64,000 nucleotides of DNA, taken from assembly GCA_943736015.1 (NCBI GenBank), contig OX031058.1, forward strand, positions 16,703,001-16,767,000, in the 5' to 3' direction. Source of the stretch: Tridacna crocea. Lineage: Eukaryota > Mollusca > Bivalvia > Cardiida > Cardiidae. The position numbers and the translations under genes were made by a program. Shown piece after piece: positions 148 to 60,366 of this stretch. Position 1 is the first letter of the stretch; each line of letters starts with the position of its first letter. The notes under the pieces are model-generated. The model was not told the origin of the DNA. It made no database searches and saw nothing but the letters and a program-made list of their open reading frames with translations.

Positions 148-372
148 CTCTTTACCGCACAATCCCGACTTTTAACGACCATGAGAAAGAAGCTTTCTGA
201 AAGCATTGTGGGAAAAGAAGAAAATGCTGGTAACCAGCATTTTCTTCTTTTCCCACAATGTTTTCTCCCCTTCCCAAAAGAAATTTCAAATTTTCAGTTA
301 CTTTCATTTTTTCGTCTGCAAATGCTTTCAATTTGGACAAGTCTAAAATGTTGTCGTTTGGAAAAGAGTTAC
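144..372 (-). mobile_element. F1 TTAA element, full length
   Basis: Complete S-core-L copy sharing its first TTAA with the preceding copy. The core carries a mirrored change: AAGAAG in the left half and CTTCTT in the right half, where most copies have AAGGAG and CTCCTT. The last TTAA has decayed to TTAC. Confidence 0.9.
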
Positions 373-607
373 CGTATGTCTTTACCAAATGACAAAATTT
401 TAGACTTGTCCCCAATTGAAAGCATTTGCAGATGACAAAATTTAATGTGACTCATAAATTGAAACTTTCCTTCAGAAAAGTAGACAACATTGTGGAAAAA
501 GGAAGAAAATGCTGGTAATCAGCATTTTCTCCTTTTCCTACAATGTTTTTTCATCATGTTTCTTTCTCTAGATCGGTAAAACCAGGGATTATTTGCCAAA
601 GAGTTAA
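369..607 (+). mobile_element. F1 TTAA element, full length
   Basis: L-core-S copy abutting the previous one at TTAC and ending in AAAGAGTTAA. Together with the two copies on its left it forms a run of three. The S arm is diverged (CTAGATCGGTAAAACCAGGG). Confidence 0.85.
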
Positions 608-870
608 AAGGCAATGGATTCTGAATTTGCAATGTAAATAGAATTACAATGGAAAGGAAAGCTGCCTGTAAACAAACAAAAAGCATCATGTCTCTGACAA
701 AAAGCTTTTTGTATAGGACCGAAAAGATGATCTAAAGTAACTCCAAGAGAATTAGTCATGGACTATAAGATTAATTTTGATGAACATGTTCTTTCAGTAA
801 CCATTCTTTTTCTCTCAAAAATGTCCTTTTTCTTTTAAAATTACCTTTTTCTCTCAAAAATCTGTATTGC

Positions 871-1085
871 TTCAGTCTTTAGCAAACCACAAAAACTTAG
901 ACTGGTCCAAATTCATAGCATTTGCAGATGACAAAAAAGAATAAATTTTTGCATTGGGAAGGGTAGAAAACATTGTGGAAAAGGAGAAAATGCTGGTTAC
1001 CAGCATTTTCTCCTTTTCCTACAATGTTTTCAAAAGGCTTCTTGCATAGGGTTGTTAAAGACGGGATTGTGTGGTAAAGGGTTAA
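871..1085 (+). mobile_element. F1 TTAA element
   Basis: L-core-S copy with a worn 5' end (TTCAGTCTTTAGCAAACCAC) and an intact 3' end GGTAAAGGGTTAA. The core keeps the central GGTTACC typical of L-first copies. Confidence 0.85.
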
Positions 1086-1710
1086 TCTATAATGTGCTTT
1101 TGCAGATACAGTAGATTAAGATCAGACTGCTCAAATTATGCAGTCTGATCTTTGATCTACATTATCTGCTCTTCTACGACATTCTGGAAGATAACAACCT
1201 TGACTTTGCACATAATCCAACTAGAAACCATTTGCAAACGATATATCAAATTGTAGCTAAAATGCCAAGATTGTTCTTTGATGACAAAAAACGTTGGAGA
1301 GAGAAGCAGAATGTTTTGAACCAACATCTTCTTTTATTTTTCAAAATGTCTACAGAATCTGTCTATGTCAGAATCCTATAATAATTCAGGACTGTTTGGT
1401 ACAGTGTTGATATTTCACTTCAGACAATATTTACCTTTCATACCCATTTGCATCAAAACAGGCTTTTTGTTACAGTGTAGATCAAAGACGGGCCTGCATA
1501 GAATCTTCAATCTTAAATCCATATTGTCCAATATTTTACTGCTAAAACTGAGCTTCAAATTTGCATTAAGTTCAATGTGTGACCACAATCAATTCTCAAT
1601 CTAATTTTGAAATTCTGAACTCTGAAAATACCCGTTTGAACGGCCCAGATTCCTAATCCACAAACTATTCTTAAGAACATTCTTTGTCATATTCTCAACA
1701 TGTTTTTTTT
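1086..1710. other. No gene seen; contains one hairpin
   Basis: Apart from the hairpin at 1111-1160, I see no coding pattern, splice-flanked exon or recognised repeat here. Open frames are short and lack codon structure. Confidence 0.5.
1111..1160. repeat. GATC-type hairpin repeat
   Basis: Left arm GTAGATTAAGATCAGACTGC at 1111-1130 and right arm at 1140-1160 are near-perfect inverted repeats around a 9-nt loop. The same word (GTAGATCAAGATCAGA and its complement) recurs at 3835, 3946, 6987, 15284, 29323, 37061 and 53241, so this is a dispersed small palindromic family. Confidence 0.7.
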
Positions 1711-1810
1711 CTAAATTAGAAAGCAACACAACTTCTGTTTGGCTAAAATTCATCTGGTTTTGCCAATCAGATTTGGTATAGCAGTTGTGTTACTTTCTAA
1801 ATCTAGAATT
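1711..1810. repeat. Palindromic element, AAGTAACACAACTTCT type
   Basis: Inverted arms CTAAATTAGAAAGCAACACA and the complement of GTGTTACTTTCTAAATCTAG. The inner part GTTTGGC...GCCAATC also pairs. A second copy lies at 4824-4900, so this is a separate small hairpin family without TTAA ends. Confidence 0.65.
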
Positions 1811-2086
1811 AGACAAAGAAGTTTCTTCAAAATGGTTGGCGAATATGAACCAGTGTTTTGTCTCAGCCAGTCCAATGGCTAGCCAGTTACAAGTTTTGAA
1901 TACAAATACCAGTTTTCCTACAAAATTAAACTTTCCATTTCATGTATTTAGCCGTTCAAAGGTTAAATCTGAAAGCATCAGCTTTGTTTTACATCCATAA
2001 TGGAGGTAACAAAGTGACTCAATGAATTAACTACCAATAGGGCAAGATATGGTTTATAATCTGGCACTAAGACCACCAGTAATCCT

Positions 2087-2309
2087 TTGACCCTTTACGA
2101 AATGACAAAATTTTAAAGCGGTGCAAATGGAAAGCATTTGCAGACGACAAATCAAATGTGGCTGAAATTTATCTTCAATTATAGGGTAGAAAACAAGTGA
2201 AGAAAGGAGAAAATGCTAGTCACCAGCATTTTCTCCTTTACCAACAATGTTTTTAAAAGGCTTTTACATCAGGGTCATTACAACTAGGGATTCCGTGTCA
2301 AACTGTTAA
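2087..2309 (+). mobile_element. F1 TTAA element
   Basis: L-core-S copy, worn at the start (TTGACCCTTTACG) and ending in AACTGTTAA. Core half-sites are unequal (CAAGTGAAGAAAGGAG against CTCCTTTACCAACAATG), indicating an old copy. Confidence 0.8.
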
Positions 2310-2513
2310 CTTTATACCAAACAACAAAATCTCAGACTTGGGAAGCATTTGTAGATGACAAATATTACTCAAATGATGAGATTTGTCTGTAATATGGTCG
2401 AAACAGTTAGGGAACAGGAAAAATAGGCTGTTTATTTGCATTTTCTCCTTTCTGAATGATATTTTCAAAAGCCAAAGTCTTAAAGGTTGTTACAAGTTCA
2501 GATTGAATGGTAT
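2306..2513 (+). mobile_element. F1 TTAA element, degraded
   Basis: Begins at the TTAA shared with the preceding copy and has a recognisable L arm (TTTGTAGATGACAAATATTA). The core is badly eroded and the 3' terminus is lost. Confidence 0.65.
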
Positions 2514-2519
2514 GGAATT

Positions 2520-2748
2520 TTATCCCTTTCCCAAACAAGCCCTTGTTTCTATGTGTCTGCAGTACAAGTCTTTTGAAAACACTGTGGGGAAAGGAGAAAG
2601 TTGCTCGTAACAATCAATTTCTCCTTTTCCCACAGTGTTTTCTGCCTGTTCGGATAATTTTCTGCCATTGTCGTGAAAGATAAAATTGCTGTCTGCCAAC
2701 TCTTTCAGTTTGGAAGAGTCTAAAATTTGTCGTTCGGGTAAGGGTTAA
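2520..2748 (-). mobile_element. F3 TTAA element
   Basis: S arm of the F3 type (CCCTTTCCCAAACAAGCCCT, GTGTCTGCAGTACAAGTC), core CACTGTGGGG...CCCACAGTG with an inner TTGCTCG instead of ATGCTGG, and right end TAAGGGTTAA. Related copies are at 27116 and 40140. Confidence 0.85.
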
Positions 2749-3298
2749 AATACCATAAAAATTCATTGTGGAGAAAAGAGAATACCAGTATACTATTTAC
2801 CATCTCAATTTTTACTTGGCATTCGAAGATTTAGAAATAAAAGCTTTTCCCTCTGACTCCATATACAAGGATGTTTGTCATACAGAAGTTGTCATTGTTC
2901 CTCCACAATCCCGCCAATTATGTTCATTTTGAACAAGTATCAAAGCCATTAGCTATCACGCAACTGCCAATCAACATGCAATCTACAATGCTTGTCAATC
3001 ATCTCTTAATAACCCTTATTTCAACCAATCCAATTATAGTTCTCTATGAAACGACATATGAAATGTAAATGGACATAACATGATAGATGAAGTGGGAGGC
3101 ATTTCTCATAGTTCTTAACACTTTGCTAGAAGATTCCTTGGTAAATGATGGTGGAAAGGTGGTGCAGTTAGAAAACACATGAACATCAATCTCTGGTCGA
3201 GGGTTCCATTCCCATCTTGCCATGAACTTTCAGACATTTTAAAATACAGGTGCACAATGGTACAGAAGCAAGAGGTAACCTTTGGGTGTATCAGTGCT
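2749..3298. other. No gene seen; possible tRNA-like SINE scrap
   Basis: Mostly featureless. A possible RNA polymerase III promoter pair lies at about 3160-3230 (TGGTGCAGTTAG, then CGAGGGTTCCATTCCC), which could be the head of an old tRNA-derived SINE. The body is not recognisable. Confidence 0.3.
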
Positions 3299-3527
3299 TT
3301 AACCCATTACCAAACAACAATATTTTAGACTGGTCCAAATTGAAAGCATTTGCAGATGACAAAATAAAAGTTACTGAAAATTTGAAGTTTGTTTTGTGAA
3401 GGGTAGAAAACATTGTGGGAAAAGAAGAAAATGCTGGTTACCAGAATTTTCTCCTTTTCCCACAATGTTTTCTAAAGGCTTCTTTCTCAGGGACGTCAAA
3501 AGTAGTGATTGTATGGTAATGAGTTAA
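3299..3527 (+). mobile_element. F1 TTAA element, full length
   Basis: Well-preserved L-core-S copy with TTAACCCATTACC and GGTAATGAGTTAA ends. The L arm includes GTTTTGTGAAGGGTAGAAAA, marking the young subfamily also seen at 15808, 38126 and 49915. Confidence 0.93.
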
Positions 3528-4387
3528 ACTCAGGCTTGTAAAAGAACCATGGGGTTCTTGTTGATGAAAGAATGGGGTCCGTACAAAAATCTCCATGTAT
3601 CTGATTCTTTCAATCTAGCTTCTTTCTCCCTAATATTCCATTCCAAATATGCCTATAGCAGAGAGAGACCTGAATCCTCAAAGACCTAAATTCTCAAAAT
3701 TCATCATCATGATGCCAACTACAGGAAATGTGCTGTCAGTGGGCAAGGCTCTTGAAATTTCGTGGCTGTTCACCGAAAAGACATGTCTAAAAATTTTGGA
3801 CAGTGAAGATCAATAATCAAAGAGCACTTTCTGTGCAGTCTGATCTTAATCTACACTTTCCTCAAAAACACACTTTGTTGCTTTATCGCCTTGCATCACT
3901 TAATTTAACAGTTCAGGTCACAATCAGACATGAATGCTGAGCATGCAGTCTGATCTTAGATCTGTTACTGTTTAGTACATTGATAACATCAGTTCAAAAT
4001 CTGTTTCAGAAAGATACCTAGAATTGTTTACTATTTTTTCAAGAACTCTCTATCATAAAAACCTCAAAAACAAACCTCTGTAATGTCAGTTCTTTTCCCT
4101 AGTGGAGCGTTTTATTGCACATCGAAATTCTCATATTTTCATGTAACAACATCATAATGTTGCATGTTCGTCAAAATACGGCCACTTTATGCAAATCAGA
4201 TTATCATGTGAAGAGATGCAGAGAGGCTGACGTGGATTGCTATTGACAGAGATGGGTCTTTCTGTATATTTGCCGTGTGAAGAATAACAATTGATAGAGG
4301 AATGGTTCATCTCTAAATCAATGAAAATTAAGTAAAAATCTTCCCCACACTTGTTACAGGAGATCTAAAAGCAACAGAAATACCATT
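3528..4387. other. No gene seen; two GATC half-hairpins
   Basis: Contains TGCAGTCTGATCTTAATCTA at about 3836 and TGCAGTCTGATCTTAGATCT at about 3945, which are single arms of the hairpin family at 1111. Nothing else is supported. Confidence 0.45.
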
Positions 4388-4620
4388 CCTTTACTTGTTA
4401 CCCAATGACAAAATGTAGACTCATCCAAAGTCAAAGTATTTGCATTTAAATGACAATATTTGTGTTGCTACACTGACAATTCTTGTCTTTGATAGAGTAT
4501 TAAACATTGTGGGAAAAGGAGAAAATGCTGTCTACCAGCATTTTCTTCTTTTCCCACAATGTATTAAAAACCTTCTCTTTAAGGATTGTTAAAATTCAGG
4601 ATTGTGTGATACCAGGTTAA
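4388..4620 (+). mobile_element. F1 TTAA element
   Basis: L-core-S copy with a worn L arm and a good core. The centre reads CTGTCTACCAG, so the central bases have diverged while both flanks still pair. Confidence 0.8.
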
Positions 4621-4800
4621 TTCTTTACCTAACATTGTAATTACGAACTCAAAAGAAAATCCAAAGGTTTTGCATCAAACAAATCAAATCTTGCTCAATT
4701 TGTGGGATTTATATGTAAGAGACTGGAAAACACTGTGGCATAATGAGAAAATGCTTCTTACAAGGGTCCTTTTTCACCAATCATTCTCAAAAACATTCAA
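4617..4800 (+). mobile_element. F1 TTAA element, degraded
   Basis: Starts at the shared TTAA (TTAATTCTTTACCTAAC). The L arm and the left half of the core (AAAACACTGTGGCATAATGA) can be followed, but the right half is scrambled. Confidence 0.5.
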
Positions 4801-4823
4801 AGTCTAATTCTTGAAGATTTTCT

Positions 4824-4900
4824 GAATTTGAAAGTAACAACTTCTAATTGGCTTAATCAAACAGTTTAGCCAATCAGAAGATGTGTTACCTTTCACATTT
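4824..4900. repeat. Palindromic element, AAGTAACACAACTTCT type
   Basis: Arms GAAAGTAACAACTTCTAATT and the complement of CAGAAGATGTGTTACCTTTC enclose TTGGCTTAATC...TTTAGCCAATC. This is the second copy of the family at 1711. Confidence 0.6.
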
Positions 4901-5117
4901 AGAGAACTACAGAGAATTAAACTAAGGTTTTTTTTCTGAGAACCACTGGTGAATGCTAATCCAGATTTTTTTTGAAAAGCTGCTCTTTGCAGGGTTGTTA
5001 CACTGTAAGACTGCACATGACGATTTATTTAGACATTTATAGCAAGTTAAAAACAAAAGATTTAGTAACCGTTTTCATTTTCAATGATGAGGCATTAAAA
5101 ATGTCAAAAAGGATATA

Positions 5118-5351
5118 TTCAACTCTCTACTAAACCACAAAATTTTACACTAGACCAAATCAAAAGCACCTGCAAATGACAAATTCATTGTTGAAAATAT
5201 GATGTCATTTGCTTTTGAAGTGGTAGAAAAACATTGTAGGAAAAGGAGAAAATGCTGGCAACCAGCATTTTCTCCTTTTCACACAATGTTTTCGAACAGT
5301 TTTTTTTTGTCCACATTGTCATAAAAATCGAGATTTTGTGGTAAAGGGTAA
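5118..5351 (+). mobile_element. F1 TTAA element
   Basis: L-core-S copy with TTCAACTCTCTAC as its start and GGTAAAGGGTAAA as its end. The core is intact around GGCAACC. Both terminal TTAAs have mutated. Confidence 0.8.
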
Positions 5352-5407
5352 AGGGGATATAAAATCTCAAATAATCTAGCAAGAAAAAAATCAGCTGCAG
5401 CGTCTGG

Positions 5408-5640
5408 TATGCCTCTTCACCAAACTACACAATTTTAGATCAGCTCAAACTTAAAGAGTTTGTAGACGAAAAACTAAATGCGTCTCATACTCTAAGAATT
5501 CCGTCATTGAAACTGTAGAAAATATTGTTGGAAAAGTAGAAAGTGATGTTTACCAGCAATTTATCTTTTTTTTTTTTCACAATGTTTTCAAAAGCCTCCT
5601 TATCTTGAGAGTCAATTAGCTTGAGATTATGTTTAGGATA
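5408..5640 (+). mobile_element. F1 TTAA element, old
   Basis: L arm and core can be followed (TGTAGACGAAAAACTAAATG, then AAAATATTGTTGGAAAAGTA). The right half of the core holds a 15-T run. Both ends are decayed. Confidence 0.65.
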
Positions 5641-6734
5641 TCAACAGAGTATGAGGTCTTTCCGTATAAGAAAGACCTTGGCACAAGCTTTACGTACCAC
5701 CGAGGTGTTTTGTGAAGCTCTTGCCATGTTGTTCTTATATGGAAAGATCGATGTACGATGTACAATATCTGACTTACATATTGGCCACCATCAGTATTGA
5801 ACAGGCAAGTTAACAATCATGTTGAGAAGTATGGACCTATTCGAAGAAAAAAGAAGCATCTAACATGGTTTATGGTCTTATAACTTTGAGGTATTTTTTC
5901 TTATTTATTTATCAGGTTTTTTTCTTAATTGAAGACTGATGAATCATGACTTGAAAATGAACCTCATGAGCATCGACCTCTGGATTTGTTGGTTACTAGC
6001 AATTTTGTGGTATTTGTTGAAGACAATACCACTATGAGTTCAATATTGAATTTTGAAGATCAGGTATCGTATGTTGCAGCAAACAAGTTTTTCAGTAACA
6101 CTCAGATATTTAATTGGAAAATGGCATGTTAAAATACACTGGATGAGGCAATCTATCATGGAAATACTAATTTTTAATTGAAATTAGCTTCACTCGCTAA
6201 TAAACTTCTATTGGCGCGATGATATAAAATTTGTCTTCCGATCGCTTGGTCCTGGGCTTTTTCGTTCCAAAACCAGTTTGTCCCATGGCTTGTTCATCCC
6301 ATAATTGAGCGCTACTCCATTTGATAGGGCATAAATATTCATAGATCCAAATAATTAATTGTAATATTGGGAATTAAATGATAACGACCATAAATATTTC
6401 AAAATCATAGTTTTCAGGTAAAAACTTAATTCTGTTCAATATATTCACATGATTACTCTCTCTATCCATCATGCATCCTACTATCAAGGGACATTACTAC
6501 GGACTCCTCCTAATGATCAAAGGGAGACCACCAATACACAAATAATCCAAACTTGGTCATGAGCATTGTCCCTTTAACCAAAAAGGTATTCATTTGCTTA
6601 GAAGGTTGACTTTCAAGCCAATATTTGAATAACATTTCCCTTTTCCTTCAATATTATTAATTCCACACAATGGCTTCCTTGACAAATACCACATCAGTGT
6701 TCTCAATGCTTTGATTCCTTTTTTACACTTTGTC
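5641..6734. other. No gene seen
   Basis: Contains a short perfect hairpin (GGTCTTTC/GAAAGACC at about 5663-5685) and a weak triple word GTTCCA / GTTTGTCCCA / GTTCATCCCA at about 6262-6301. No coding signal was found. Confidence 0.45.
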
Positions 6735-6930
6735 TTCAGAAGCCTTCTTTCTTCTTCAGGGTCTTTAAATGACTGTATGGTGTTTAATGCCATTTTCAAC
6801 ACTATTCTAGTCATTGCGGTGGCCAGTGCACCTATGCATGCTTTCCTGGAGTCTCTTTTACCAGTACTCGGCACAATTTTCTTTCCAAGCCACTGGACCC
6901 TCAGAGCCGTTAAAAAGTAAATTGTCATAA
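6735..6930 (-). mobile_element. SINE-B fragment (about 6770-6888) in an F1 remnant
   Basis: The complement of a SINE-B body: GTATGGTGTTTAATGCCATT is the 3' end and CAAGCCACTGGAC is mid-body. The tRNA-like head is missing. The left flank AGAAGCCTTCTTTCTTCTTC and right flank GCCGTTAAAAAG resemble an F1 S arm, so the host was probably an F1 copy. Confidence 0.65.
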
Positions 6931-6986
6931 TAAAGAAAATTAAGGCTCTTTTGGCTATTTATTTTATCGAAGTATATAAAAGCATT

Positions 6987-7030
6987 GATCCAAGATCAGA
7001 CAACATATTATGTATCATCTGATCTTGATC
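6987..7030. repeat. GATC-type hairpin repeat
   Basis: GATCCAAGATCAGA and TCTGATCTTGATC face each other across a 14-bp spacer. This is an independent copy of the family at 1111 with different flanks. Confidence 0.65.
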
Positions 7031-7074
7031 TTCACTGTTTGCTAGCTGTTGGTTAGCACACTATAGGACATGCC

Positions 7075-7302
7075 TTAACTCTTTACCTAACAACAAAATT
7101 TTAGACTTGTCTAAACTGAAAGCATTTTGAGACAACAAAATAAGCATGACTCAAAAATTGAAACTTGATTTTACAAGAGAAGAAAACATCGTGGGAAAAG
7201 GAGAAAATGCTAGTTACCAGCATTTTCTCCTTTTCCCATAATGTTTTCAGAAGGCTTCTTCCTCTGGATCATCAAAACAGGGATTGTTTGGTAAAGGGTT
7301 AA
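7075..7302 (+). mobile_element. F1 TTAA element, full length
   Basis: L-core-S copy of 228 bp with both TTAAs intact. The core differs between halves only near its edges (CATCGTGGG against CCCATAATG). Confidence 0.93.
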
Positions 7303-7549
7303 ATTCCTGAATCTATAAGCAAAAGAGTTCCCTTTTGGAATGACAGGGCTCATTGCATCTGTGCTTCATTTTATATTCGAGAAAAAGGATGATTAAGTGT
7401 ATGTAAAATGAATCAAAATGTTACATAATGAGTGCATGATTACAATGAATAAATCTACACCATGTGTGTACATAGAGCTCCAGGTAAGAGGGCGTGATTT
7501 TGAGTTCCAAACTGAAAATACTAATTACATGTATTCTCAACTAAACTCA

Positions 7550-7610
7550 ATGTTGTGGGTACTCATTAGAATCGTCTCGTCGAGATGATTCTAATGAGTA
7601 CCCACAACAT
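7550..7610. repeat. 61-bp near-perfect palindrome
   Basis: Arms 7550-7579 and 7581-7610 are 30 nt each around a single central T at 7580, with one G/T-type mismatch. The arm starts ATGTTGTGGGTACTCATTAG. It is unrelated in sequence to the F1-F3 cores, and I see no second copy in the window. Confidence 0.85.
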
Positions 7611-9640: not shown

Positions 9641-9649
9641 CCTAGATTC

Positions 9650-14249: not shown

Positions 14250-14500
14250 CTACCCTTTACCAAACAATCCCAAGTTTAACTCTGCAAAACATTCCCTGGT
14301 TTTCACAACTCTGTGAAAGAAGTCTATAGAAAACATTGTGTGAAAAGGAGAAAATGCTGGTAACCAGCATTTTCTCCTTTTCACACAATGTTTTCTACCC
14401 TTCCCAAAACAAATTTCAATTTTTAAGCCATGTCATTTTGTCCTCTGCAAATGCTTTCAATTTTGACAAGTTTACAGTTTTGTCATTTGGTAAAGAGCTG
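14250..14500 (-). mobile_element. F1 TTAA element with mirrored core change and S-arm duplication
   Basis: The core reads TTGTGTGAAAAGG...CCTTTTCACACAA: the usual GTGGG/CCCAC is changed in both halves. The S arm is partly doubled (CAATCCCAAGTTTAACTCTG, then CATTCCCTGGTTTTCACAAC). Confidence 0.87.
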
Positions 14501-25313: not shown

Positions 25314-25526
25314 TTAAGGCATTTCTATGGTATCTCTAATTGACCCTAAATAACAGCAAGGATGAAGCCATTTCTTATGTGTATCTGACACCTTTGACAG
25401 CATAGAAAACATTGTGGCAAAAGGTGAAATTGCTCGTCACGAGCAATTTCACCTTTTGCCACAATGTTTTCAAAAGGCTCCTACAAGCAATGCGTAGAAA
25501 TGAGTATCTATGGAGTAAAGGGTTAA
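25314..25526 (-). mobile_element. F2 TTAA element, inverse orientation
   Basis: Reads GGCATTTCTATGGTATCTCT first and AAATGAGTATCTATGGAGTA last, the reverse of the other four F2 copies. Its core is perfectly mirrored (GTGGCAAAAGGTGAAATTGC and complement) with centre CTCGTCACGAG. Confidence 0.93.
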
Positions 25527-27115: not shown

Positions 27116-27342
27116 TAACTCTTTCCCAAATGACAAATTTTAGACTGTCTCAAACTCAAAGTGTTTGCAGATGACAATTTTTAATTTGATGAGAATGGAA
27201 GAAAGTTTTCCGAAAGGCTAGAAAACACTGTGGGAAAAGGAGAAATTGCTCGTTATGAGCAATTTCTCCTTTTCCCACAGTGTTTTCTAAAGACTTGTTC
27301 TGCAGACATGTAAAAACCAGGGCTTGTTTGGGAAAGTGTTTT
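27116..27342 (+). mobile_element. F3 TTAA element, L-first
   Basis: Core CACTGTGGGAAAAGGAGAAA and its exact complement, centre GCTCGTTATGAGC. The S arm ends GGGCTTGTTTGGGAAAGTG. The last TTAA has been lost. Confidence 0.88.
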
Positions 27343-28652: not shown

Positions 28653-28708
28653 AATGAGCAGAAAAAACAGTTTGTTATGTCATTAAGTCAACTCCAGTGA
28701 AAATTGTG

Positions 28709-28883
28709 GGTTATCCCTTTCCAAAACAATCCAGATTTTTCACGACCCCGAGAAAAGAAGCCTTTTAAAAACATAAGGGCAAAGGAGAAAGTGCTGTTAA
28801 TCAGCATTTTCTCCTTTGCCCACGATGTTTTCTACCCTTCCCAAAACACATTTCAGTTTTTGAGTCCCATGATTTTCCTGCAT
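28709..28883 (-). mobile_element. F1 element, L arm truncated, mirrored core change
   Basis: The core reads GGGCAAAGGAGAAA...TTTCTCCTTTGCCC: the A-to-C and T-to-G changes match across the two halves. The L arm stops after GTTTTTGAGTCCCATGA. Confidence 0.8.
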
Positions 28884-40810: not shown

Positions 40811-41077
40811 CCTTTACCACACAGTTCCAAGTTTTATTGACACTGGTAAGTAGACCTTTTTCACCTTTACCACACATGTCCCAAGTTTTAATGACACTGG
40901 TAAGTAGGCCTATTTCACCTTTACCACACAGTTCCAAGTTTTAATGACACTGGTAAGTAGACCTATTTCACCTTTACAACACATGTCCCAAGTTTTAATG
41001 ACACTGGTAAGTAGGCCTATTTCACCTTTACCACACAGTCCCAAGTTTTAATGACACTGGTAAGTAGGCCTCCTTCA
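40811..41077. repeat. Five-unit 53/54-bp minisatellite made from an F1 S-arm end
   Basis: Units start at 40811, 40864, 40918, 40971 and 41025. Each begins CCTTTACCACACA, as the F1 S terminus does, and continues TTTTAATGACACTGGTAAGT. Units alternate: ACAGTTCC/AGTAGACC (53 bp) and ACATGTCCC/AGTAGGCC (54 bp), so a two-unit block was duplicated. It sits directly against a full F1 copy. Confidence 0.93.
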
Positions 41078-41302
41078 CCCAATACCACATGGCAAAATTC
41101 AAGACCCATCCAAATTGAAAACATTCGCAAACAACAAATTTAAAGTGGCTCAAATGTCATAGCTTGCCTTTGATAGAGTAGAAAACTTTGTGGGAAAAGG
41201 AGAAAATGCTGATTACCAGCATTTTCTCCTTTTCCCACAATGTTTTCTAAAGGCCTCTTCTACAGGGTCGTTAAAAGGTGTCACTGTGTGGTAAAGGGTT
41301 AA
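41078..41302 (+). mobile_element. F1 TTAA element, GGTGCAATT-like subfamily
   Basis: L-core-S copy without a clear left TTAA (CACCCAATACCACATGGC), at the edge of the minisatellite. Ends GGTAAAGGGTTAA. Confidence 0.9.
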
Positions 41303-44871: not shown

Positions 44872-45091
44872 TTCACCCTTTACCAAACAACAGAATTTTA
44901 GACTGGTCCAAATTGAAAGCACTTGCAGACGACAAAATAAAGATAACTGAAAAATTGAAATACAGAGTAGAAAACTTTGTGGAAAAAGGAGAAAATGCTG
45001 GTTACCAGCATTTTCTCCTTTTTCCACAATGTTTTCAAAAGGGATCTACCTCAGGGTCGTAAAAACTAGGGATTGCTTGGTAAAGGGTTAA
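44872..45091 (+). mobile_element. F1 element with mirrored core change
   Basis: The core reads TGTGGAAAAAGGAG...CTCCTTTTTCCACA: the usual GTGGG/CCCAC is changed identically in both halves. Confidence 0.9.
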
Positions 45092-45281
45092 CCAAACGAC
45101 AAATTTTTAGACTGGACCAAATTGAAAGCATTTACAGACAGCAAGTACAGCTCCAATGGTTGTTTCAATGAGAAGAAATGCTGGTCAGTTACCAGCATTT
45201 TCTCCTTTTTCTTCATTCATTCCAAAAGCTTTTTTTTTTTTCAGGGTTGCTAGAACTCAGGATGATTTGGTAAAATGTTAA
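45088..45281 (+). mobile_element. F1 element, abutting
   Basis: TTAA followed directly by CCAAACGAC, so CCCTTTA is missing. The core is reduced, with an inserted CAGT at the centre (CTGGTCAGTTACCAG). Confidence 0.75.
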
Positions 45282-46148
45282 ATTGCATGGTTTGAGTGAT
45301 GACTGCTATTACGGAAAAACACCTTTATTTTGTCTGCTGCAACGGTTAAAACCTAACGACGAGAAGGCTTTCCATCATGTCAGACTCAAAATTGATGTGA
45401 ATGAATGTAATGACACGTTAATGTGTTACATAAATTAGACCCATATAAGGAAATATCCAATTTTTCAGGTATGCCTTTCGCAAAAAAGTTATGAATGAAT
45501 GAATGACAATTACCTGGCTTCTTCAATCATAACAACCTCATTAATTCTTATCGCTAAACTTTTCCCTTTTTTTCCTTACCCTTTCTGCTGTGTACATGGG
45601 ATTTCTAACTAATTATCTCTGGAAGTAACTCTTCAGCCATTATTTACAAATACAGACAATCAGGGACTAAAAGTTGATGAAATGATGGAAAGCCTTCTCA
45701 TTGTTAAAATTGAAGTCCCCCAAAAGTTGCAGACTACTTTGAACCTAAATTTTTCAACAAAAGATGTCACATCTAAAAACGTTGTTACAAAAGGAGAAAA
45801 CGCATACTGCATATTGCAAAATGAGAAAGCGTTTGTTGCAAACAATTTGCCCATGCCTTTCAAAAAGTGGATACCTGCAGGGCAAAAAAAGTCAAGAGTA
45901 ATATTGCTGCAACCTTGCTACATAAAAACATCTATATGTATTGTAACAGCTATAAAATTACTCAACAAGAGCATTAGCAAGAAAAGTTTGCTCTTGTATG
46001 AAAATACTTGTCCAATGAAATGATATCAGCATCAAATGGGACAAATCTTGTACAGAATTTATTGGGCAACCCAAGTCACATGAGATTGAAGAGGAGTGTA
46101 ACTTTTCAATGATAGTAGGACACAGTCATGCTGAAGACACTGACTTAC
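45282..46148. other. Intron or intergenic sequence beside the exon
   Basis: In the sense of the exon this lies downstream of its donor. A plus-strand frame of 113 codons at 45682-46023 has no motif I recognise and no supporting splice signals. ACAAAAGGAGAAAACGCAT near 45787 is at most an eroded F core. Confidence 0.45.
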
Positions 46149-46777
46149 CTGGCAAAGAAGCTAGCAGCAGGAGAGGCACTAGGTGGAGGTGACAATGATG
46201 ACAATCTGGACAACGAAGGCGAGGATGGTGGAGGTGAAGTTATCCGTGAAATCCTGGGAGGCGGCGACTGAATCCTGATTGGTGAACCAGGTGCTGAGTG
46301 GGAGTGGTGTAGGAGGTGCTGGTGGTGTGGCGAATAATGGTGTTGAGGCTGGTGTTGAGGACTATAATGTTGTTGCTGTTGTTGTTGGTATTGTTGTGGT
46401 TGAAAACTTTGTAGTTGTACAAAACTCTGTTGCTGAACTTGTTGCTGAAACTGCTGTTGCTGCTGCTGCTGCAGTTGTTGTTGATGTTGTTGTTGAAATG
46501 TCTGGTGCTGAGGTTGGAAGTGGTGCTGTTGCATAAACTGTTGAGGATGTTGCTGACTCAGGAGTTGATGCTGATGCTGTATCTGTTGGTGCTGATGATA
46601 AGCTTGCATAGTCATGGGCTGTTGCATATATGGTGTATTGATGAACTGGGTCCCAGACATTGGGTAATGCCCTGGATGTCGTCCAAATTGCCCCATTCCC
46701 TCTGGACCACCCGACTGAAACATATCCACTCCTTTATTGTACATTGGCTTGTCTTGTGGCCCAGGTCTTACAAGCAT
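46149..46777 (-). CDS. Internal coding exon, Gln/His-rich then Ser/Pro-rich protein
   Basis: A 629-bp exon read on the minus strand. The acceptor is a T-rich tract then TATATTTCCAG just above 46777, and the donor is CCAG|GTAAGTCAG with GT at 46148-46147. The open frame enters in phase 0 at an ATG codon (MLVRPGPQDKPMYNKG) and leaves with 2 nt of a codon, about 209 residues. Order: Met/Gly/Pro-rich start (residues 1-50), a His/Gln tract with runs of up to seven Gln (about 55-155), a His-rich step (YSPHHQHLLHHSHS), then Ser/Pro with repeated SPPP and SPSLSRLSSLSPPP. It is low-complexity, as in intrinsically disordered regions of nuclear coactivators and RNA-binding regulators. No domain is visible, so I give no gene name. 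The ATG could in principle be a start codon, but the acceptor argues for an internal exon. Neighbouring exons are not in this window. Confidence 0.8.
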
Positions 46778-46813
46778 CTGGAAATATATCAAAAGAAAAA
46801 ATTATCAAAATTA

Positions 46814-52285: not shown

Positions 52286-52299
52286 TATTTGACCTTCAG

Positions 52300-52906: not shown

Positions 52907-53240
52907 AATGTATGAACAATGAGGTAGAAAATGTAAAATTTGTCTGGACAAGCAAAGTTCAATTTTGCTACCATAACACTGAATACAAGCTATGAAAGAG
53001 ACATCTCTTCAAAATTCTACACGCAAAATAGGCATTACGTATGACATCAATATCAGACAAACAACAGCCAGAAAAAGTGCTGATGCTGTAATGATAGTGG
53101 TAGATAAAGATTGAATTGCAGACCAGAAAATGTCAAATTAATTACCAGAATTGATGTAACTCGTCTAGAATTCTCTGACGTATTTCATCTTTGGAAGCCG
53201 AGTGAAACCAATTTTCCAGTGAACTTTAGAACTGAATTCA

Positions 53241-53516
53241 ATCAAGAGTAGACTGCACATGTTGTGCAGTCTGACCTTAACCCATTACCACACAATCCCT
53301 ACTTTTGACGCCCCTGAGAAAGAAGCCTTTAGAAAACATTGTGGGAAAAGGAGAAAATGCTGGTTACCAGCATTTTCTCCTTTTCCCACAATGTTTTCTA
53401 CCCTTCACAAAACAATTTTCAAATTTTCAGTCACTTTTATTTTGTCGTCTGCAATGCTTTCAATTTGGACCAGTCTAAAATATTGTCGTTTGGTAATGGG
53501 TTAAATCTACTGTGTG
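53241..53516. repeat. GATC-type hairpin interrupted by F1
   Basis: Left ATCAAGAGTAGACTGCACA, loop TGT, right TGTGCAGTCTGACC, then F1, then ATCTACTGTG. Other family members read GCAGTCTGATCTTAATCTAC without interruption, so the F1 sits in that TTAA. Confidence 0.8.
53277..53504 (-). mobile_element. F1 TTAA element in the GATC hairpin, centre flipped
   Basis: 228-bp young-subfamily S-first copy. Its core centre is GGTTACC, the form otherwise found in L-first copies. Confidence 0.95.
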
Positions 53517-54289
53517 TCCTTTACCAAAGGTATTCTGGCATACAATGACCTTAAAATTGCAAAACTTGACCTTTTTCTATTTCTCTAATTGTTGTTGCTT
53601 CATTCATACATAAACGTATAAGGGTCAATCAACAATGTTTCAGACAGAAGAATAGATACACTACATCCCACTGGTAAGAAATGATATACTATATCCCAAT
53701 GGTCACAAAAAATATTTTATGAACCAGACATGAGGCATCCAGTCACAAAGTATTGACAAGATAATAGATCTAGAATGACAGCAATTCTATACAGATTGGA
53801 AGATAACAAATTGGTCAAAAGAGAACGAACAGCAGTAGCTGCTATCAAAACTGTCTGCCTTTGGCGAGTAGATTGCAATGTCTCGATGAAGGAAAAGGTT
53901 CAGCAGACTTTGTGGCGGTATAAGTGCCATCTTCACTTTAGAACTGATGAATTATAATGAGGTTAGATATCACTATACACTTTTATAACATAACGATCGT
54001 TTCGCGAAAGTATATGTTTGCCATCTGGTCTGATTGTCTGCAAAGAATTCACAAAATCAGTGCTGCCTGGCAATCTGGCAGTCATCGGACGGTCCCAGGA
54101 CTGTTATTTATAATCGGGCAGTGCCTGTTCGGACTCCCTCTGGTACCTAGACGAAGGCAGTCCGTTGGCCAGACGATTTTGAGATAAACGTTTTCATAAA
54201 AATTGTCTGGGTGCCGTCAGATTTCTGAAGGCATCGTCGGATAACCATACAGCGCCCGAACAGAACCTGGGCGAAGATTTAACGAGCTG
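53505..54289. other. No recognised gene; G+C-richer part at 54020-54290
   Basis: Short frames at 53775-53957 and 53957-54187 have ordinary amino-acid mixtures but no recognisable domain. The 54060-54270 part has GTCATCGGACGG, GGCAGTGCCTG and similar G/C-rich words not seen elsewhere here. Confidence 0.4.
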
Positions 54290-54683
54290 ATGGTAAATTA
54301 AATGAGTCTCAAATGATTGGATTTGTTTCTGAAAGGTAAGAAAACATTATGCATAAAACAGAAAATGCTGGTTAACAGCATTTTCTCCTTTTCAAACTAT
54401 GTTTTAATCCATTACCACATAATCCCTACTTTTGACGACCCTGAGAAAGAAGCCTTCAGAAAACATTATGGGAACAGGAGAAATGCTGGTAACCAGCATT
54501 TTCTCCTTTTCCCACAATGTTTTCTATCCTTCACAAACAAATTTCAAATTTTTAGTCATCTATATGTTTTCGTCTGCAAATGCTTTCGATTTGGACAAGC
54601 CTAAAATTTTGTCGTTTGGTAATGAGTTAAGAGGCCAATTTCCAAGGGTAATTAAAAGTCCAGATTATATGGCAAGGGATTAA
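54290..54683 (+). mobile_element. F1 outer copy, interrupted at TTAA
   Basis: L-arm remnant and core reach TTTTCAAACTATGTT, then TTAA and a full inner copy. The S arm then continues GAGGCCAATTTCCAAGGGTA to GCAAGGGATTAA. Confidence 0.88.
54404..54630 (-). mobile_element. F1 inner copy nested in another F1
   Basis: S-first, young subfamily (TTTTGACGACCCTGAGAAAG). Left core edge CATTATGGGAACAGG. Opposite orientation to host. Confidence 0.94.
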
Positions 54684-55234
54684 ATGGAGAACAACAAGAA
54701 ATTATCAAAGTACTGATAGTACTAAAGGCCAGGAAATTGAGGATACGAAACAACACACGAGGTTAATTTTAATTAATACAAACAGGTAGACGGACAGAGA
54801 TACAAGCAGATTCCACTAAGCCCCTGGAATTCTTGGTTTTATCATGAAATTTTGAACTGATACTAGAAAGCACTAGCCAGAAACTAATTAAGCCAGAGCT
54901 AGGCATGTGCTCACAGTTATGCGGTGCTTGATAATGGCTTAGAATACTTAGTAATTTGTCGTGCTTGTAAACAATCCCAAGTCAAAATTGAACTGTATTC
55001 AATCGGTGCAATACCAACTTTGGTTATCTAAATTTTCTGAGACATGTGATGTCTTGTAGTCCTGAATGACGTTATTTTTTACATTTATGACGCAAGTACA
55101 TATTTATTTTTATTGATTTCAATGAAAATACATGTAAGATAGATATCAAGGTAAAATGTAATGAATAATAAAGATTGGAGTGATACGGCAGTTGGTCATG
55201 TTGTCTCTACCTTCCACAAGTCGACGAAATTTTG
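54684..55234. other. No gene seen
   Basis: Nothing recognised. Confidence 0.45.
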
Positions 55235-55415
55235 AACTGGTCATATTTGAAGGAAGTTGTAGATAAAAATCCAAAGTAGTTCTTCGTGTACATTGAAAAT
55301 TAAGATTTTGGGGAAATTGGGAGGAATTGCTTGTTACAAGCGAATTCTCTTTTAGCCAAAATATTTTCTCAATAAAATACTGTGAAAAGGTTGGATTGTT
55401 TTGGGAAAACGATTA
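55235..55415 (+). mobile_element. F1-like element, very old
   Basis: ACGAAATTTTGAACTGGTCA, core traces GGGGAAATTGGGAGGAATTG, GCTTGTTACAAGC, and AGCCAAAATATTTTCTC. Confidence 0.45.
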
Positions 55416-55452
55416 GGCTCGGTTTTCCTATTTTACTTGCCTATTTTACGGA

Positions 55453-55910
55453 CAAGTCACAGTGACTTGAGCTTCGATACTTATATCTACATAATATAAA
55501 AAGACGTTAATCCTAATTCATGATCGTTGTCCAAGGACAACTTGTGTCAAGCCCGCAAACACTTGACTCTCAAGCTTGACCTAGACCCTGGACCTGAATA
55601 AATGTTTCAAAGGGAACTTCTACTCATGATGGAGAACAATGCATCGGAATCTATCCAAAAATGTAGGAGTTATGGTTCGGACGAAAAATTGGCCTTCAAC
55701 GGGGCCTTGATCTTGAACCTACTTGAACAGATGTTTCAAATGGCACATCTAACCGTGATGGAGGTCAATTGTGCCAAATTATTTTGAAATCCATCCACAA
55801 TTGTAGAAGTTATGGACCGGAAATATTCGGATGCACACAAGCCCTAGTGAACACTAGAAATATATGTGTCAGAGACACTGATGCCCCTGCTAAATGGTAT
55901 TGGTCATAGG
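55453..55910. mobile_element. Unclassified element with two 120-bp sub-repeats
   Basis: Starts near a perfect palindrome CAAGTCACAGTGACTTG (55453-55469). Two diverged units share the order CTTGA..CC.GAATAAATGTTTCAAA..CATGATGGAG..ATCCA.AA.TGTAG.AGTTATGG (near 55576 and 55710). The right side has TGTGTCAGAGACACTGATGC. I recall similar words from mollusc repeats (unchecked). The frame across it is not a gene. Confidence 0.5.
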
Positions 55911-56282
55911 TACGTCATATGACACTAGTAGAGAGAGAGAGAGGAAAAAAATACATTAAATAACAAGCGAACGACTACAGAAAAAAATTATAAGCATTTA
56001 TTTGGTTTCAAATCAAAGTCAATCAAAGACATTTTTAAGAATCACACAGGTGTAATCTATTTGTGACAGGTGTAAAAGGTGTGAAATACATCCTATCAGT
56101 GTGAAATAGGCAGCATAAACAATGATAAAACTACCAAATAACTCTTGGATAAAGGTATAGATCTAATACACATAATGTACATACTAAAGACAACGAAATT
56201 TCAAAAATATTTTTATAGACAACTTGATTAACGATATGGATGAAATCTGATGTTGGGGTCCATTTTTCTAAAATTTTATTTG
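55911..56282. other. No gene seen
   Basis: Short GA-run at 55930-55945 and repeated GGTGTGAAATA words near 56060-56110. Confidence 0.4.
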
Positions 56283-56391
56283 GGAACGATTTCACCAAAG
56301 AAATGGTCTCCAGGGGACGATTTCTCCGGAGTGATGAACATAACACGGGCCAACCAGTTTGGGGACGATTTCTCCAGGGGCCGATTTCTCC
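56283..56391. repeat. Four iterations of GGGGACGATTTCTCC
   Basis: GGAACGATTTCACC (56283), GGGGACGATTTCTCC (56313 and 56361) and GGGGCCGATTTCTCC (56377). The word AACATAACACGGGCCAA also occurs twice (56337, 56447). Confidence 0.75.
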
Positions 56392-56602
56392 AGCATTCCG
56401 CTGAAGTACCCTAGATTTAGTCTATATACATAAGAAAAAGTGATAAACATAACACGGGCCAATATTCTATACATAGTTTGCTTTCTTTACAATCGCATTT
56501 TAGCGGAGACGCGTTTTGTGACACACATGTTCAAATGTCAACACAACGTCATAGACAAACTCCGAGCAGAGTCGTCGTTCGTTAATCTCACCGAATTATG
56601 GA

Positions 56603-57312
56603 CATTTCGTACCATAACCATTTCGTACCAGTCATTTGGTACCATAGGATTGGTCATTTCATACCATGATATTACCATTTCGTACCATATGTGTGGTTAT
56701 TTTTTTATCATGATTTCACCGTGAAAATCTATTTGAATATAGAAAATAATAGTCGAATTTAGATGTAAAAAAAGTTTATTTGATTCATAATCCTCGAAAT
56801 ATAAGATAAAATTATAATAGATATAAACGAAACATAATGGATGAATGTATGGATGATAAATGCAATGATGATGTTTTTTTCATTCGACATTTCTATTTCA
56901 ATTTCGTAACAAATATAATTAAAGGCAAACACCAAACAATTTTTTTTCAAATTGTAATTACCAATCTTGTAACAAACATTAACCAAACAATGTAATTATC
57001 TATTAATTGTGTCAAACATCGATTGCTTCCTTTAATTGATTAGCGAATATTTAATTTATAAGTATGCAACAAATGCAACTATAAAACTTTTGGCAATTAT
57101 AAAAGCAACATTTTTTTAAAAAATTCATCAAAGAATACATTTTAATAATCGTTAGGTAAATAAACTATCAACTTGGTACGAATTCGTAAGTTATGGTACG
57201 AAATTGTAATATTATGGTACGAAATGGTCAATGCATGGTACGAAATGGTAATTCATTGGTACGAAATGGTAATATTATGATATATGGTACGAAATGGTTA
57301 TGGTACGAAATG
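56603..57312. mobile_element. 710-bp element with iterated GGTACGAAATGG ends
   Basis: Inverted ends CATTTCGTACCATAACCATT and its complement. The word GGTACGAAATGG or its inverse recurs four times on the left (56603-56690) and seven times on the right (57176-57312). The interior is extremely AT-rich and non-coding. GAC on both outer sides may be a 3-bp target duplication. Confidence 0.82.
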
Positions 57313-57992
57313 ACTGTATACCATCTCACCATACCTGAATATGAATGATCTGGAGTGCAAGAGAGAGCATTATAGATATTAACCGTATATAGCGCGTAGG
57401 AATACACAACTGCCGGATAAACTAAGTTCATTAGGTTACGCCTTTATTAGGTCAGTGTTAATGACAAAAACGGGATAAAAAACGCACACTCGTCAGTTAT
57501 TAAAGGATTGTAATACCCTTGCAATTCTATGGCGTTTTGCAGATGAAAGCTTTGAGGAAAGGAAGCATTCACACCGTGTGATAAGCAATCTCTGTATATA
57601 CTTAGGAAACTAGTTGTTTTGGCGAACTCAGCGATATAGAGTGGACACACCAACCAACATTTTTGTCTGAATAGACAGCTTACGATCCCTATAGGCAAGG
57701 GAATCCCTTGAGAGGGATTCCCTGGCCTAAAAATGCCGACATGGAGCTAACTGTAAGGTTAAACAAGGTTTTCATACCGCACATGTTAAAATAACTCATC
57801 TACCATCATTTCCATAGAGACTAAGATAACGTAATGGAACTAATTCTATTTTCCTGTCAATGATCTAGAAAATGATTTTTGAAAGCTAGTTGATAAGAAA
57901 AAAGTTGTCAATGTTCATTAGCTTGTGTGTTAAACTCCTCCAAAATGAAATTTTATCCCTAATCATAATTTAATCTATTTATAACTTGTTCT
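57313..57992. other. No gene seen; one strong hairpin
   Basis: 57693-57708 (AGGCAAGGGAATCCCT) pairs with 57713-57728 with one mismatch across a TGAG loop. No other feature was recognised. Confidence 0.55.
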
Positions 57993-58062
57993 TTAACCTT
58001 TTATCACACATATCCTGAGTTTTAACGACTCAAACAGAAAAGGAGAAAATGCTGGTAACCTT
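57993..58062 (-). mobile_element. F1 fragment
   Basis: TTAACCTTTTATCACACATA, a shortened S arm and left core half to GCTGGTAACC. Confidence 0.7.
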
Positions 58063-58216
58063 AGTCTTACAGCATGTTTACAGAGGTACTATCCAAATAT
58101 GGAGAGAATCTTGGGTCCAAGAATCTTACCAGATATTTATATAGGTAGTATTCACCTATGGAGATAATTTCACTTATTTACAAAGTATTGAAGTAAGCAG
58201 AGAATATTTCCACTTA

Positions 58217-58445
58217 TTTCTATGCATAGATACTCATTTCTACGCACTACTTGTAGGAGCCTTTGGAAAATATTGTGGCAAAAGGTGAAATTGCTTGTGA
58301 CGCGCAATTTCACCTTTTGCCACTACGTTTTCTATGCTATCTAAAGCATAAAGAATCGTATACCCATAAGACACAGCTTCATCATTGCTGTTATTTAGGG
58401 TAAATTAGAGATACCATAGAAATGCCTTATGGGGTAAAGGGTTAA
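58217..58445 (+). mobile_element. F2 TTAA element
   Basis: The left TTAA end is lost (TTCTATGCATAGATACTC). The core is good apart from the centre GCTTGTGACGCGC. Ends GGGGTAAAGGGTTAA. Confidence 0.92.
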
Positions 58446-58447
58446 AG

Positions 58448-58675
58448 TTAACCCTTTACCAAACAATCCCTGGTTTTTACGACCCCGAGATAGAAGCTTT
58501 TTGAAAACATTGTGGGAAAAGGAAAAAATGCTGGTAACCAGCATTTTCTCCTTTTCCCACAATGTTTCTACTCTGCTGGAAACATATTTCAAGTTCTGAT
58601 TTACGTTCATTCAGTCTTCTGCAAGTGCTTTCAATTTGGACCAATCTACAATTTTGTCGTTTGGGAAAGGGTTAA
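58448..58675 (-). mobile_element. F1 TTAA element, full length
   Basis: 228 bp, separated from the F2 by two bases (TTAAAGTTAA). S arm CCCTGGTTTTTACGACCCCG. Confidence 0.94.
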
Positions 58676-58839
58676 AGAATCCAAATGAGGAGCAATTCAT
58701 TCAACATATTTACAGAGATAGTATTCAAATGAGAAGTAACTTTTTCCAGAAGTAACTTTTTCCAAATATTTACAGAGGTAGTAATTTCAAATAATGAGAT
58801 AATCTTTCCACACATTTACAGAAGTAGTATCCAAATGAG

Positions 58840-59328
58840 TTCCCACCCGGGTGGCTCAGTGGTGAGCGTATCGGACTCATGACCCGGTGGTTGCGAGTTC
58901 GATAGTCGGTTGAGGCGAACTTTCTTTCTGGCATATATTCACCTCTCACCTCTGCTGAAGCATGTGAGAAAACTAGTCGGTGGCTTCGGTTAGAAAGTTG
59001 TGTTAGTACTGGTGTGAGAAAGCCAGGAAACACATATGTGTCACCGATCGCCATGATATGACCTTAGCTGTTAACTCTTTACCACACGAAAAAATTTTAG
59101 ACTGGTCCAAATTTAAAGCATTTGCAGAGGACAAAATAAGGATGAGTGAAAAATTGGAATTTGTTCTGGTAAGGGTAAAAAACACTGTGGGAAAAGGAGA
59201 AAATGCTGGTCACCAGCATTTTCTCCTTTTCCCACAGTGTTTTCAAAAGGCTTCTTTCTCAGGGGCATCAAAAGTAGGGATTGTGTGGTAATGGTTTAAA
59301 GTGGCGTTAAACCCCAATACAACCAACA
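58840..59328 (+). mobile_element. SINE-A, full length, split by F1
   Basis: Flanks ATCCAAATGAG (58829-58839) and ATCCAAATAAG (59329-59339) are an 11-bp target duplication with one mismatch. Head GGGTGGCTCAGTGGTGAGCG with an anticodon-like CTCATGA, B box GCGAGTTCGATAGTC, and 3' end GTGGCGTTAAACCCCAATAC, CAACCAAC. Without the insert it is about 264 bp. Confidence 0.93.
59071..59299 (+). mobile_element. F1 TTAA element inserted in SINE-A
   Basis: 229 bp. The intact SINE-A at 9002 reads GCTGTTTAAGTGGCG at this point, while here GCTG is followed by TTAA...TTAA and AGTGGCG. Core CACTGTGGG/CCCACAGTG is perfect. Confidence 0.96.
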
Positions 59329-59580
59329 ATCCAAATAAGCAGAAACTCTTTCCACAAACAGAGGTTGGTTGTATCTAAATGAGGAAAGAATCTTACCACA
59401 TATTTTCAGAAGTATTACTCCAATAAGGAATTAATCTTTCCAGATATTTATGGAGGTAGTACTCTGAATAGGAAAAAAATCCTTTCACATAATAAAATAG
59501 ATAGTATCTCAATACAGAGAGAATCCTTAGGATACTATTGAGATGCTAACATGGGTAGTACCTAAATATATGCATGTCAA

Positions 59581-60163
59581 ACAATTCTATCCTTATATAT
59601 ATAAACCACATCTGTGAGAGATCAATTTGAAAATAACGCTTCTTTTCAATCTTTTTTTTTTAAATGTCACCCAAGGTATTAACTTTGAAATACCAGCAAC
59701 AGGCAAGTAGCTCACAGACACACAGGGCCATTATTTCAACTATGTTTTCCTTATTATTTTAAGTTGGTCTTTTTCATTCAACCAAATGGGTTGACTGCTA
59801 GTTTTTGGAGGACAAGAAATTAATTTGCAGAATTAAGCAAAAGGTAAAAGAATCACAAAAAGATTAAACTATAGTCTAGGTTACAAAGATAAAAAGATAT
59901 CAATAAAAATACAAACTATTATTTATTTGTAATAATGTTTTCACCATACACAGAGTAAAGGATTTCAGAGTCTGGGATATTTACATGAAACAATATGCCC
60001 AAAAATCTACATATATCAAATTTTATCATACTTCCAAATTTGAGCTTTGAGTGTCTGCTTTCCTCTCCATAAGTCCCTTTGGATTTCAATTCTAAAGCCA
60101 GTAAAAAATGATGGCATGCCCAAATCAAAGAAATTCTGAGAAAATTTCTATTATCGTCTATCA
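59581..60163. other. No gene seen
   Basis: A 101-codon minus-strand frame at 59919-60224 overlaps an F1 S arm and has no recognisable motif. Confidence 0.4.
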
Positions 60164-60366
60164 TTAACCCTTCACAAAACAATACCATCTTTCCATTCCT
60201 GATAAAAAGTGTGAGTGAAAACATAGAGGGAAAAGAATGTTTACCAGCATTTTCTTCTTTTCCCTCTATATTTTCTACAATTTACATAAACATCCATATC
60301 ATTCAAGCATGATTTAATTGTCGTCTGCAAAAGCTCTCAATTTGGGTGAATCTAAATTTTGTCATC
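60164..60366 (-). mobile_element. F1 element with doubly mirrored core changes
   Basis: The core reads ATAGAGGGAAAAGAA...TTCTTTTCCCTCTAT where F1 has TTGTGGG/CCCACAA. Several changes are matched in both halves, although part of the left inner arm is deleted. Confidence 0.87.

Follow-up and report, generated by a model that had tools for sequence, protein, structure and literature searches.

The window examined here, a stretch of 64,000 nucleotides (nt) of the bivalve Tridacna crocea (contig OX031058.1; G000:C3:16703001-16767000) from a genome of 1.05 Gb in 31 contigs, carries many copies of a miniature inverted-repeat transposable element (MITE) with a palindromic centre. It contains 143 matches to the MITE model, and 110 of them (50 on the plus and 60 on the minus strand) span the 67-nt core at the centre of the element, in which 33/33 pairs match around one unpaired base. 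Core positions are numbered from 0, and pair i joins position i with position 66-i. According to our analysis, the halves of this core are occasionally copied onto each other by template switching within the palindrome, and the source elements are kept palindromic by selection or amplification; we assign this reading a probability of about 0.75.

Judging from its sequence, the repeat appears to be a piggyBac-type MITE without coding capacity. Its consensus spans 229 bp and has TTAA at both ends; the main consensus has the termini CCCTTTACCA and CTCTTTACCA, and its inverted terminal ends, CCCTTTACCACACA and CTCTTTACCAAACG, are identical at 11/14 bases. Among the 255 copies with both ends aligned, exact TTAA stands at both ends in 127, and at least three of its four letters stand at both in 209. 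Terminal inverted repeats starting with the piggyBac-type CC[C/T]T were counted as present: CCCTTT opens both ends in three of the four consensuses obtained by clustering copies on their arms (the flanks of the core, which lie outside the palindrome), whereas the second end of the main consensus starts with CTCT. The TTAA target duplication and the short, non-coding, high-copy character also agree with this type, and open reading frames (ORFs) of at least 120 amino acids number only four in the 64 kb. Twenty 10-kb regions, drawn at random within already-seen coordinate ranges of 16 contigs and not across the whole assembly (the first of eight drawn lists), gave 241 matches in 200 kb, 182 of them spanning the core. 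This density of approximately 1.2 per kb extrapolates to about one million copies, and the exact inner 35-mer of the core occurs 166,719 times genome-wide. An Rfam scan of the window and an exact scan of IMG/VR returned no matches. At 61970-62023 of the window, two oppositely oriented elements seem to be joined end to end, across a palindromic 26-bp unit that is present in approximately two repeats.

The first-pass annotation had noted that changes in one half of the core are repeatedly matched in the other, and had named five cases. All five are present, both on reading and on alignment to the core (Table 1). A general tendency of the halves to be held matched was, on the other hand, not borne out. 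The 110 core-spanning window copies contain 423 one-sided changes, 28 mirrored changes of subfamily type, 28 other mirrored changes and 34 pairs in which both positions changed without mirroring, so that mirrored changes are a minority from which the striking cases had been picked. In a set of 236 F1-type copies, left after removal of those that carried subfamily states or had over five core gaps, 984 of 1101 variant cells are one-sided, 53 mirrored and 64 unmirrored. The general rule of matching halves was therefore rejected, since one-sided changes dominate.

The 236 copies belong to a sample of 320, which comprises 110 copies from the window, 182 from the twenty regions and 28 from seven further loci found with a window copy as the query; 97 further matches were dropped for not spanning the core, and the kept matches came to 417 overall, without the locus L001, which overlaps the window. 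Complementary double changes in the 320 copies amounted to 168, against 42 expected from column frequencies, and in slid registers to 24-36 against 17-23 expected. Five subfamily states, those at pairs 7, 13, 20, 25 and 30, supply 96 of the 168. The sample held no mirrored indels; the one row flagged as such was a centre gap matching itself.

The flanking arms separate inheritance from recurrence, because they lie outside the palindrome. Copies sharing one of the five states were closer by their arms than random copies in most cases (pair 25, 22/27; pair 30, 17/19; pair 7, 23/24; pair 13, 12/13; pair 20, 11/13), and in this positive control pair 7, for example, gave a mean arm distance of 0.122 between same-state copies as against 0.224 for random ones. 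The mirrored states at these pairs are therefore inherited subfamily marks tied to arm type, and were counted as few events. The earlier claim that the differences between the F1 and F2 cores are mirrored was confirmed: the consensus of the F2 cluster differs at pairs 7, 25 and 30 only and stays 33/33 palindromic. A further core type carries mirrored states at pairs 13, 20, 25 and 30.

Recurrence beyond these marks was assessed genome-wide with patterns of the 35-mer core that altered the letters at both of two chosen positions and kept the rest exact. With controls or single changes, these patterns covered two pairs and one deletion; the counts are stated as whole, under a general warning that repeat counts are lower bounds. 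The mirrored combinations 19-47 and 21-45 were both changed in 2658 and 407 places, and the unmirrored combinations 19-45 and 21-47 in 271 and 201. The cross-ratio of the four counts is 19.9 (95% confidence interval 16.1-24.5), where 1 is expected; as single-site rates and a shared age effect cancel in it, the excess is specific to the pairs. Letters were tabulated for the first 100 listed places (19-47, 21-45, 19-45 and left-only tables by eye, 21-47 by script). Among the first 100 of the 407 places at 21-45, 76 were complementary (AT 38, TA 22, CG 16) and 24 were not. After correction by a heterogeneity factor of 2.29, derived from non-complementary doubles and with single rates of the right half assumed equal to those of the left, the excess is 17-fold for TA, 8-fold for CG and 2-fold for AT. 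Among the first 100 of the 271 unmirrored places at 19-45, the letters look independent (TA 2, CG 2). Where the left-hand letter was T or C, 38/52 of the listed doubles were complementary in the mirrored pair versus 9/61 in the two unmirrored combinations (p = 2.6e-10). Quasi-independence fits of the letter tables were unstable and were not used. One-sided changes remain far more numerous at pair 21 (3617 left-only versus 407 both-changed copies). A mirrored one-base deletion occurs 24 times, with 736 left-only occurrences; the expectation is 3.2 if right-only deletions are assumed as frequent as left-only ones, and 7.5 with the heterogeneity factor. The genome-wide counts are decisive for the pairs tested, and the covariation check thus upholds the statement that mirrored doubles exceed independent mutation, for the two counted pairs and for the one-base deletion.

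Two sets of copies with one-sided states are separate observations. One left-only deletion of a single core base is shared by four copies, at G000:C2:39004868, 39015179, 39025491 and 39035818; they are regularly spaced at approximately 10.3 kb and probably represent a tandem segmental duplication. The copy pairs at G000:C1:24590252/24591275 and 24670698/24671720 share one one-sided change at a spacing of approximately 1.02 kb, 80 kb apart, and are a probable segmental duplication.

If the mirrored variants were a few inherited subfamily states, with both changes derived from the source element, copies of one state should again resemble each other in the arms, as they do for the five pairs above. 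For the remaining states, the mean distance to the nearest same-state copy was compared with that to the nearest of equally many random perfect-core copies, and the two were similar: 0.204 versus 0.205 for 20 copies with AT at pair 19, 0.266 versus 0.247 for 20 TA copies and 0.281 versus 0.258 for 16 CG copies at pair 21, 0.270 versus 0.246 for 20 copies with the mirrored deletion, and 0.221 versus 0.210 for nine copies with the pair-12 state. These were 20 of the 22 listed TA and all 16 listed CG copies, 20 of 76 listed AT copies at pair 19 (all from one contig, within its first 9.1 Mb), 20 of the 24 mirrored deletions, and eight of 75 pair-12 copies plus the window's own. Since the same-state copies sit on unrelated arms, the states arose separately and repeatedly among the copies tested. 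Moreover, three complementary types coexist at pair 21. Pure inheritance was rejected by the arm test for the non-subfamily states, and as an account of the mirrored variants in general it is improbable. The opposing view set out in the first-pass annotation, that the variants are few inherited states, therefore holds for the F1/F2 differences, but not for pairs 12, 19 and 21 or the deletion.

Palindromes are hard templates, and the evidence comes from the assembly, so that sequencing or assembly errors at hairpins have to be considered. The arms of mirrored pair-21 copies are, however, more diverged (0.237-0.240) than those of perfect-core copies (0.154) and of all 24 listed unmirrored copies (0.182), which an age-blind error would not produce; we regard an artefact as very unlikely.

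The unpaired central base provides further counts. With copies oriented by their arms, the consensus centre is A. T stands there in 9/84 copies with 0-2 other core changes, while A/T swaps elsewhere amount to 0.39% per site; among perfect-core copies the fraction is 7/71. Genome-wide, the exact core with short flanks has T at the centre in 512 places and G in 158, a ratio of 3.2, whereas in young F1-type copies the remaining A/T sites give an A>T to A>G ratio of 0.39. T-centred copies are not clustered by their arms (2/30 nearest neighbours; closer than random in 9/35), and the centre differs in 23.5% of arm-nearest pairs (73 pairs at less than 10% arm distance), in which the bases around it are the least diverged of the element (1.5-2.9%). 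T makes up 3-9% in the five classes whose arm relatives are closer and 24% in the two classes that follow; one age class had a T centre in 19/79 copies, while other A/T sites had changed at approximately 7%. The copy at 53274-53503 is an example within the window: of the six copies closest to it by their arms (at a distance of 3-5%), five have A at the centre and one a gap. The change from A to T at the centre is recurrent. With a spacer of one base, inversion and an A to T substitution look alike and the spectrum has to decide; an inverted middle accounts for A to T, whereas plain hypermutability would be expected to raise G no less.

Template switching would connect these observations as follows. 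After insertion, each half of the palindrome would mutate independently. Synthesis through the palindrome would occasionally switch template, by folding back or by moving onto the other strand, so that one half would be copied onto the other and a one-sided change would be erased or written across as a mirrored change; a switch spanning the middle would invert the central base from A to T. Apart from this, source lineages remain perfect palindromes, and a few mirrored states have accordingly been inherited and amplified as subfamilies. We infer template switching as the agent and replication as the setting. In a rough consistency check, a T-centred share of about a tenth among perfect-core copies would correspond to a few per cent of one-sided changes being written across; at pair 21, the 407 both-changed copies compare with 3617 left-only ones. 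Switching may thus fix a few per cent of variant pairs. The proposal that the halves correct each other is accordingly retained in a restricted form: it agrees with the pair-specific excess, the mirrored deletion, the unrelated arms and the recurrent central change, but does not extend to general matching.

Source lineages appear to need a further explanation. All four arm clusters of four or more copies (172/314 copies) have consensus cores that are 33/33 palindromic. Three of these clusters differ from the main consensus by 17%, 23% and 27% in the arms, and their cores are identical in the first two and different at 6/67 bases in the third. Between arm-nearest relatives in the 320-copy sample, divergence of the core is approximately half that of the arms, with a minimum beside the centre. 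Of eight base-and-context classes, seven show lower divergence in the core than in the arms, and in the eighth (T in CG/TG/CA contexts) the values are equal, 0.060 and 0.059. Selection on pairing, under which only intact palindromes are mobilised and a compensatory second change is an advantage to a source lineage, would account for the perfect consensuses, for the F2 core differing from F1 by mirrored pairs only and for the reduced core divergence; the internal region of a coral MITE group is likewise reported as more conserved than its ends (PMC2872659). It is plausible that the palindrome is selected for mobility in these lineages. The retrieved mirrored copies, however, give no indication of having been amplified and were thus not favoured by mobilisation, and the central change leaves pairing unaltered, so that selection on pairing would not produce it. 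As a rival explanation, selection on pairing is given somewhat less than even odds; of the earlier suggestion that pairing is under selection, the part concerning source lineages may stand, but it does not account for the scattered mirrored copies or the centre.

Gene conversion between copies, which would move whole cores and spread a few mirrored ones over many arm types, is suggested by the identical core of the arm types at 17% and 23% and by the low divergence beside the centre. Against rampant exchange, the F2 and other subfamily cores stay with their own arms. The excess lies between paired sites and is absent between the neighbouring unpaired sites tested, and exchange would move mirrored states, not create them. 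We therefore consider conversion an unlikely source of the pattern.

Several results weigh against switching between the halves or limit its role. In the 236 copies, mirrored doubles exceed expectation weakly (53 versus 42.8, s.d. 5.7, p about 0.05). Inner pairs, which a centre-spanning switch should reach most often, have no extra excess (13 versus 11.4 expected, strata summed). Low core divergence is not predicted by unbiased switching alone, which does not lower divergence, and constraint on source elements or core exchange must be added. At the centre, the T fraction falls to 13% in the oldest class and is thus not monotonic with age; G is raised too, and in one class of 65 outnumbers T by 7 to 4, so that inversion and hypermutability may both act. 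T centres also have no clear link with mirroring at pair 21 (7/36 mirrored versus 3/24 unmirrored copies). Finally, copies with at least 10 core changes (two upper strata summed) have 26 mirrored doubles against 28.3 expected, while those with 0-9 (three lower strata summed) have 27 against 13.7. The two upper strata are what chance double changes in fast-mutating or old copies would give, yet chance was rejected as a general account by the cross-ratio of 19.9, and mirrored transversions are 8- to 17-fold in excess after the age factor (first 100 listed); we consider it extremely improbable.

Individual copies of the window are given in Table 1. The 60163-60364 copy combines three mirrored and two one-sided pairs with a T centre, which is what one switch event would leave. 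The inner 57 nt of the copy at 14278-14499 are found exactly in 75 places of the genome.

Table 1. Copies and cores of the MITE in the window that bear on mirrored changes (window positions).
Feature	Position	Strand	Core	Changes
Full MITE copy	142..371	+	199-265	Mirrored pair 19, GC>AT (G218A with C246T); one-sided change at 203
MITE copy	14278..14499	+	14329-14395	Mirrored pair 12, GC>TA (14341 T / 14383 A); core otherwise intact
Second-core-type core	25403..25471			Mirrored states 13, 20, 25, 30 (read from the printed sequence)
F2 copy core	27219..27289			Mirrored states 7, 25, 30 (read from the printed sequence)
Decayed MITE copy	28707..28875	+	28767-28832	Mirrored pair 14, AT>CG (28780 C / 28818 G); five one-sided pairs, one both-changed unmirrored pair
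MITE copy	44873..45092	-	44970-45036	Mirrored pair 13, GC>AT (44983 A / 45023 T); one one-sided change
Young copy	53274..53503	+		Core perfect except centre T instead of A
Decayed MITE copy	60163..60364	+	60217-60275	Mirrored pairs 8, 10, 19 (60225/60267, 60227/60265, 60236/60256); two one-sided pairs, T centre, 8-nt deletion in left half

Apart from the MITE, the most exon-like ORF of the window is glutamine/histidine-rich and lies at 46145-46801 on the minus strand. A protein search with it gave one distant unnamed homologue (E 1.8e-10), and a Pfam search of five window ORFs gave a single match, below the cut-off, and none for this ORF.

Among known elements, the CMITE group of Acropora corals is described as TTAA-flanked, with piggyBac-like ends and tandem arrays (PMC2872659). 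According to the same account, CMITEs are approximately 100 bp long, share a 75-base internal sequence and have a copy number estimated at 1,600 in A. millepora, and the internal region shared by their families is more conserved than the ends (PMC2872659). The element of T. crocea, likened to them by description, has the same flanks, piggyBac-like ends and an internal part more conserved than the ends between families. A tandem array is present as well, at 40811-41079 of the window, with five units of approximately 53 bp resembling the left end of the element (CCTTTACCACACAG...). It differs from CMITEs in its length of approximately 229 bp, in its roughly million copies and in the palindromic nature of the conserved core; the CTCT start of one end of the main consensus also departs from the CC[C/T]T start of CMITE and piggyBac ends.

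Template switching between inverted repeats has been reported to homogenise the arms and to invert spacers (PMC8604942, PMC3820800, PMC8794818). The yeast works (PMC3820800, PMC8604942) describe reporter-gene reversions, and multinucleotide changes in 39 genes with ten spacer inversions; in RNA genes, thousands of compensatory changes were placed in trees, where structure is also selected (PMC8794818). The core resembles these cases in homogenisation of the halves beyond chance (cross-ratio 19.9; deletion 24 versus 3.2-7.5; weak in the 320-copy sample) and in spacer inversion, here of one base (T:G 512:158). Unlike them, it offers scattered copies of one non-coding palindrome, in which unpaired positions serve as an internal control. 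Long inverted repeats of Caenorhabditis are often more conserved in structure than in sequence, implying active maintenance (PMC1803023); in contrast to those gene-scale repeats, the MITE core has halves of 33 bases and its individual copies are weakly maintained. Half-to-half copying in a MITE core was not named in the literature surveyed, which consisted of titles and abstract openings, with subscription papers mostly outside. The mechanism is thus known, and the setting is an unusually well replicated one.

For hairpins and structured RNAs it has long been asked how both members of a pair can change in concert and avoid a broken intermediate. One proposed answer is template switching, which in RNA genes is confounded with selection on structure. 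With 166,719 exact inner cores, the many copies of this MITE give counts for each pair and letter type and for the spacer, so that copying between the halves could here be measured directly in its rate, its tract length and its dependence on age. A stronger and more doubtful proposal is that the element is a self-repairing palindromic MITE, in which switching would outpace point substitution per site (compare the age class with T centres in 19/79 copies), the hairpin would regenerate its own symmetry, mirrored doubles would arise independently by the hundreds and the central base would count switches. If this is true, mutational self-maintenance may partly explain how the family reached about a million copies.

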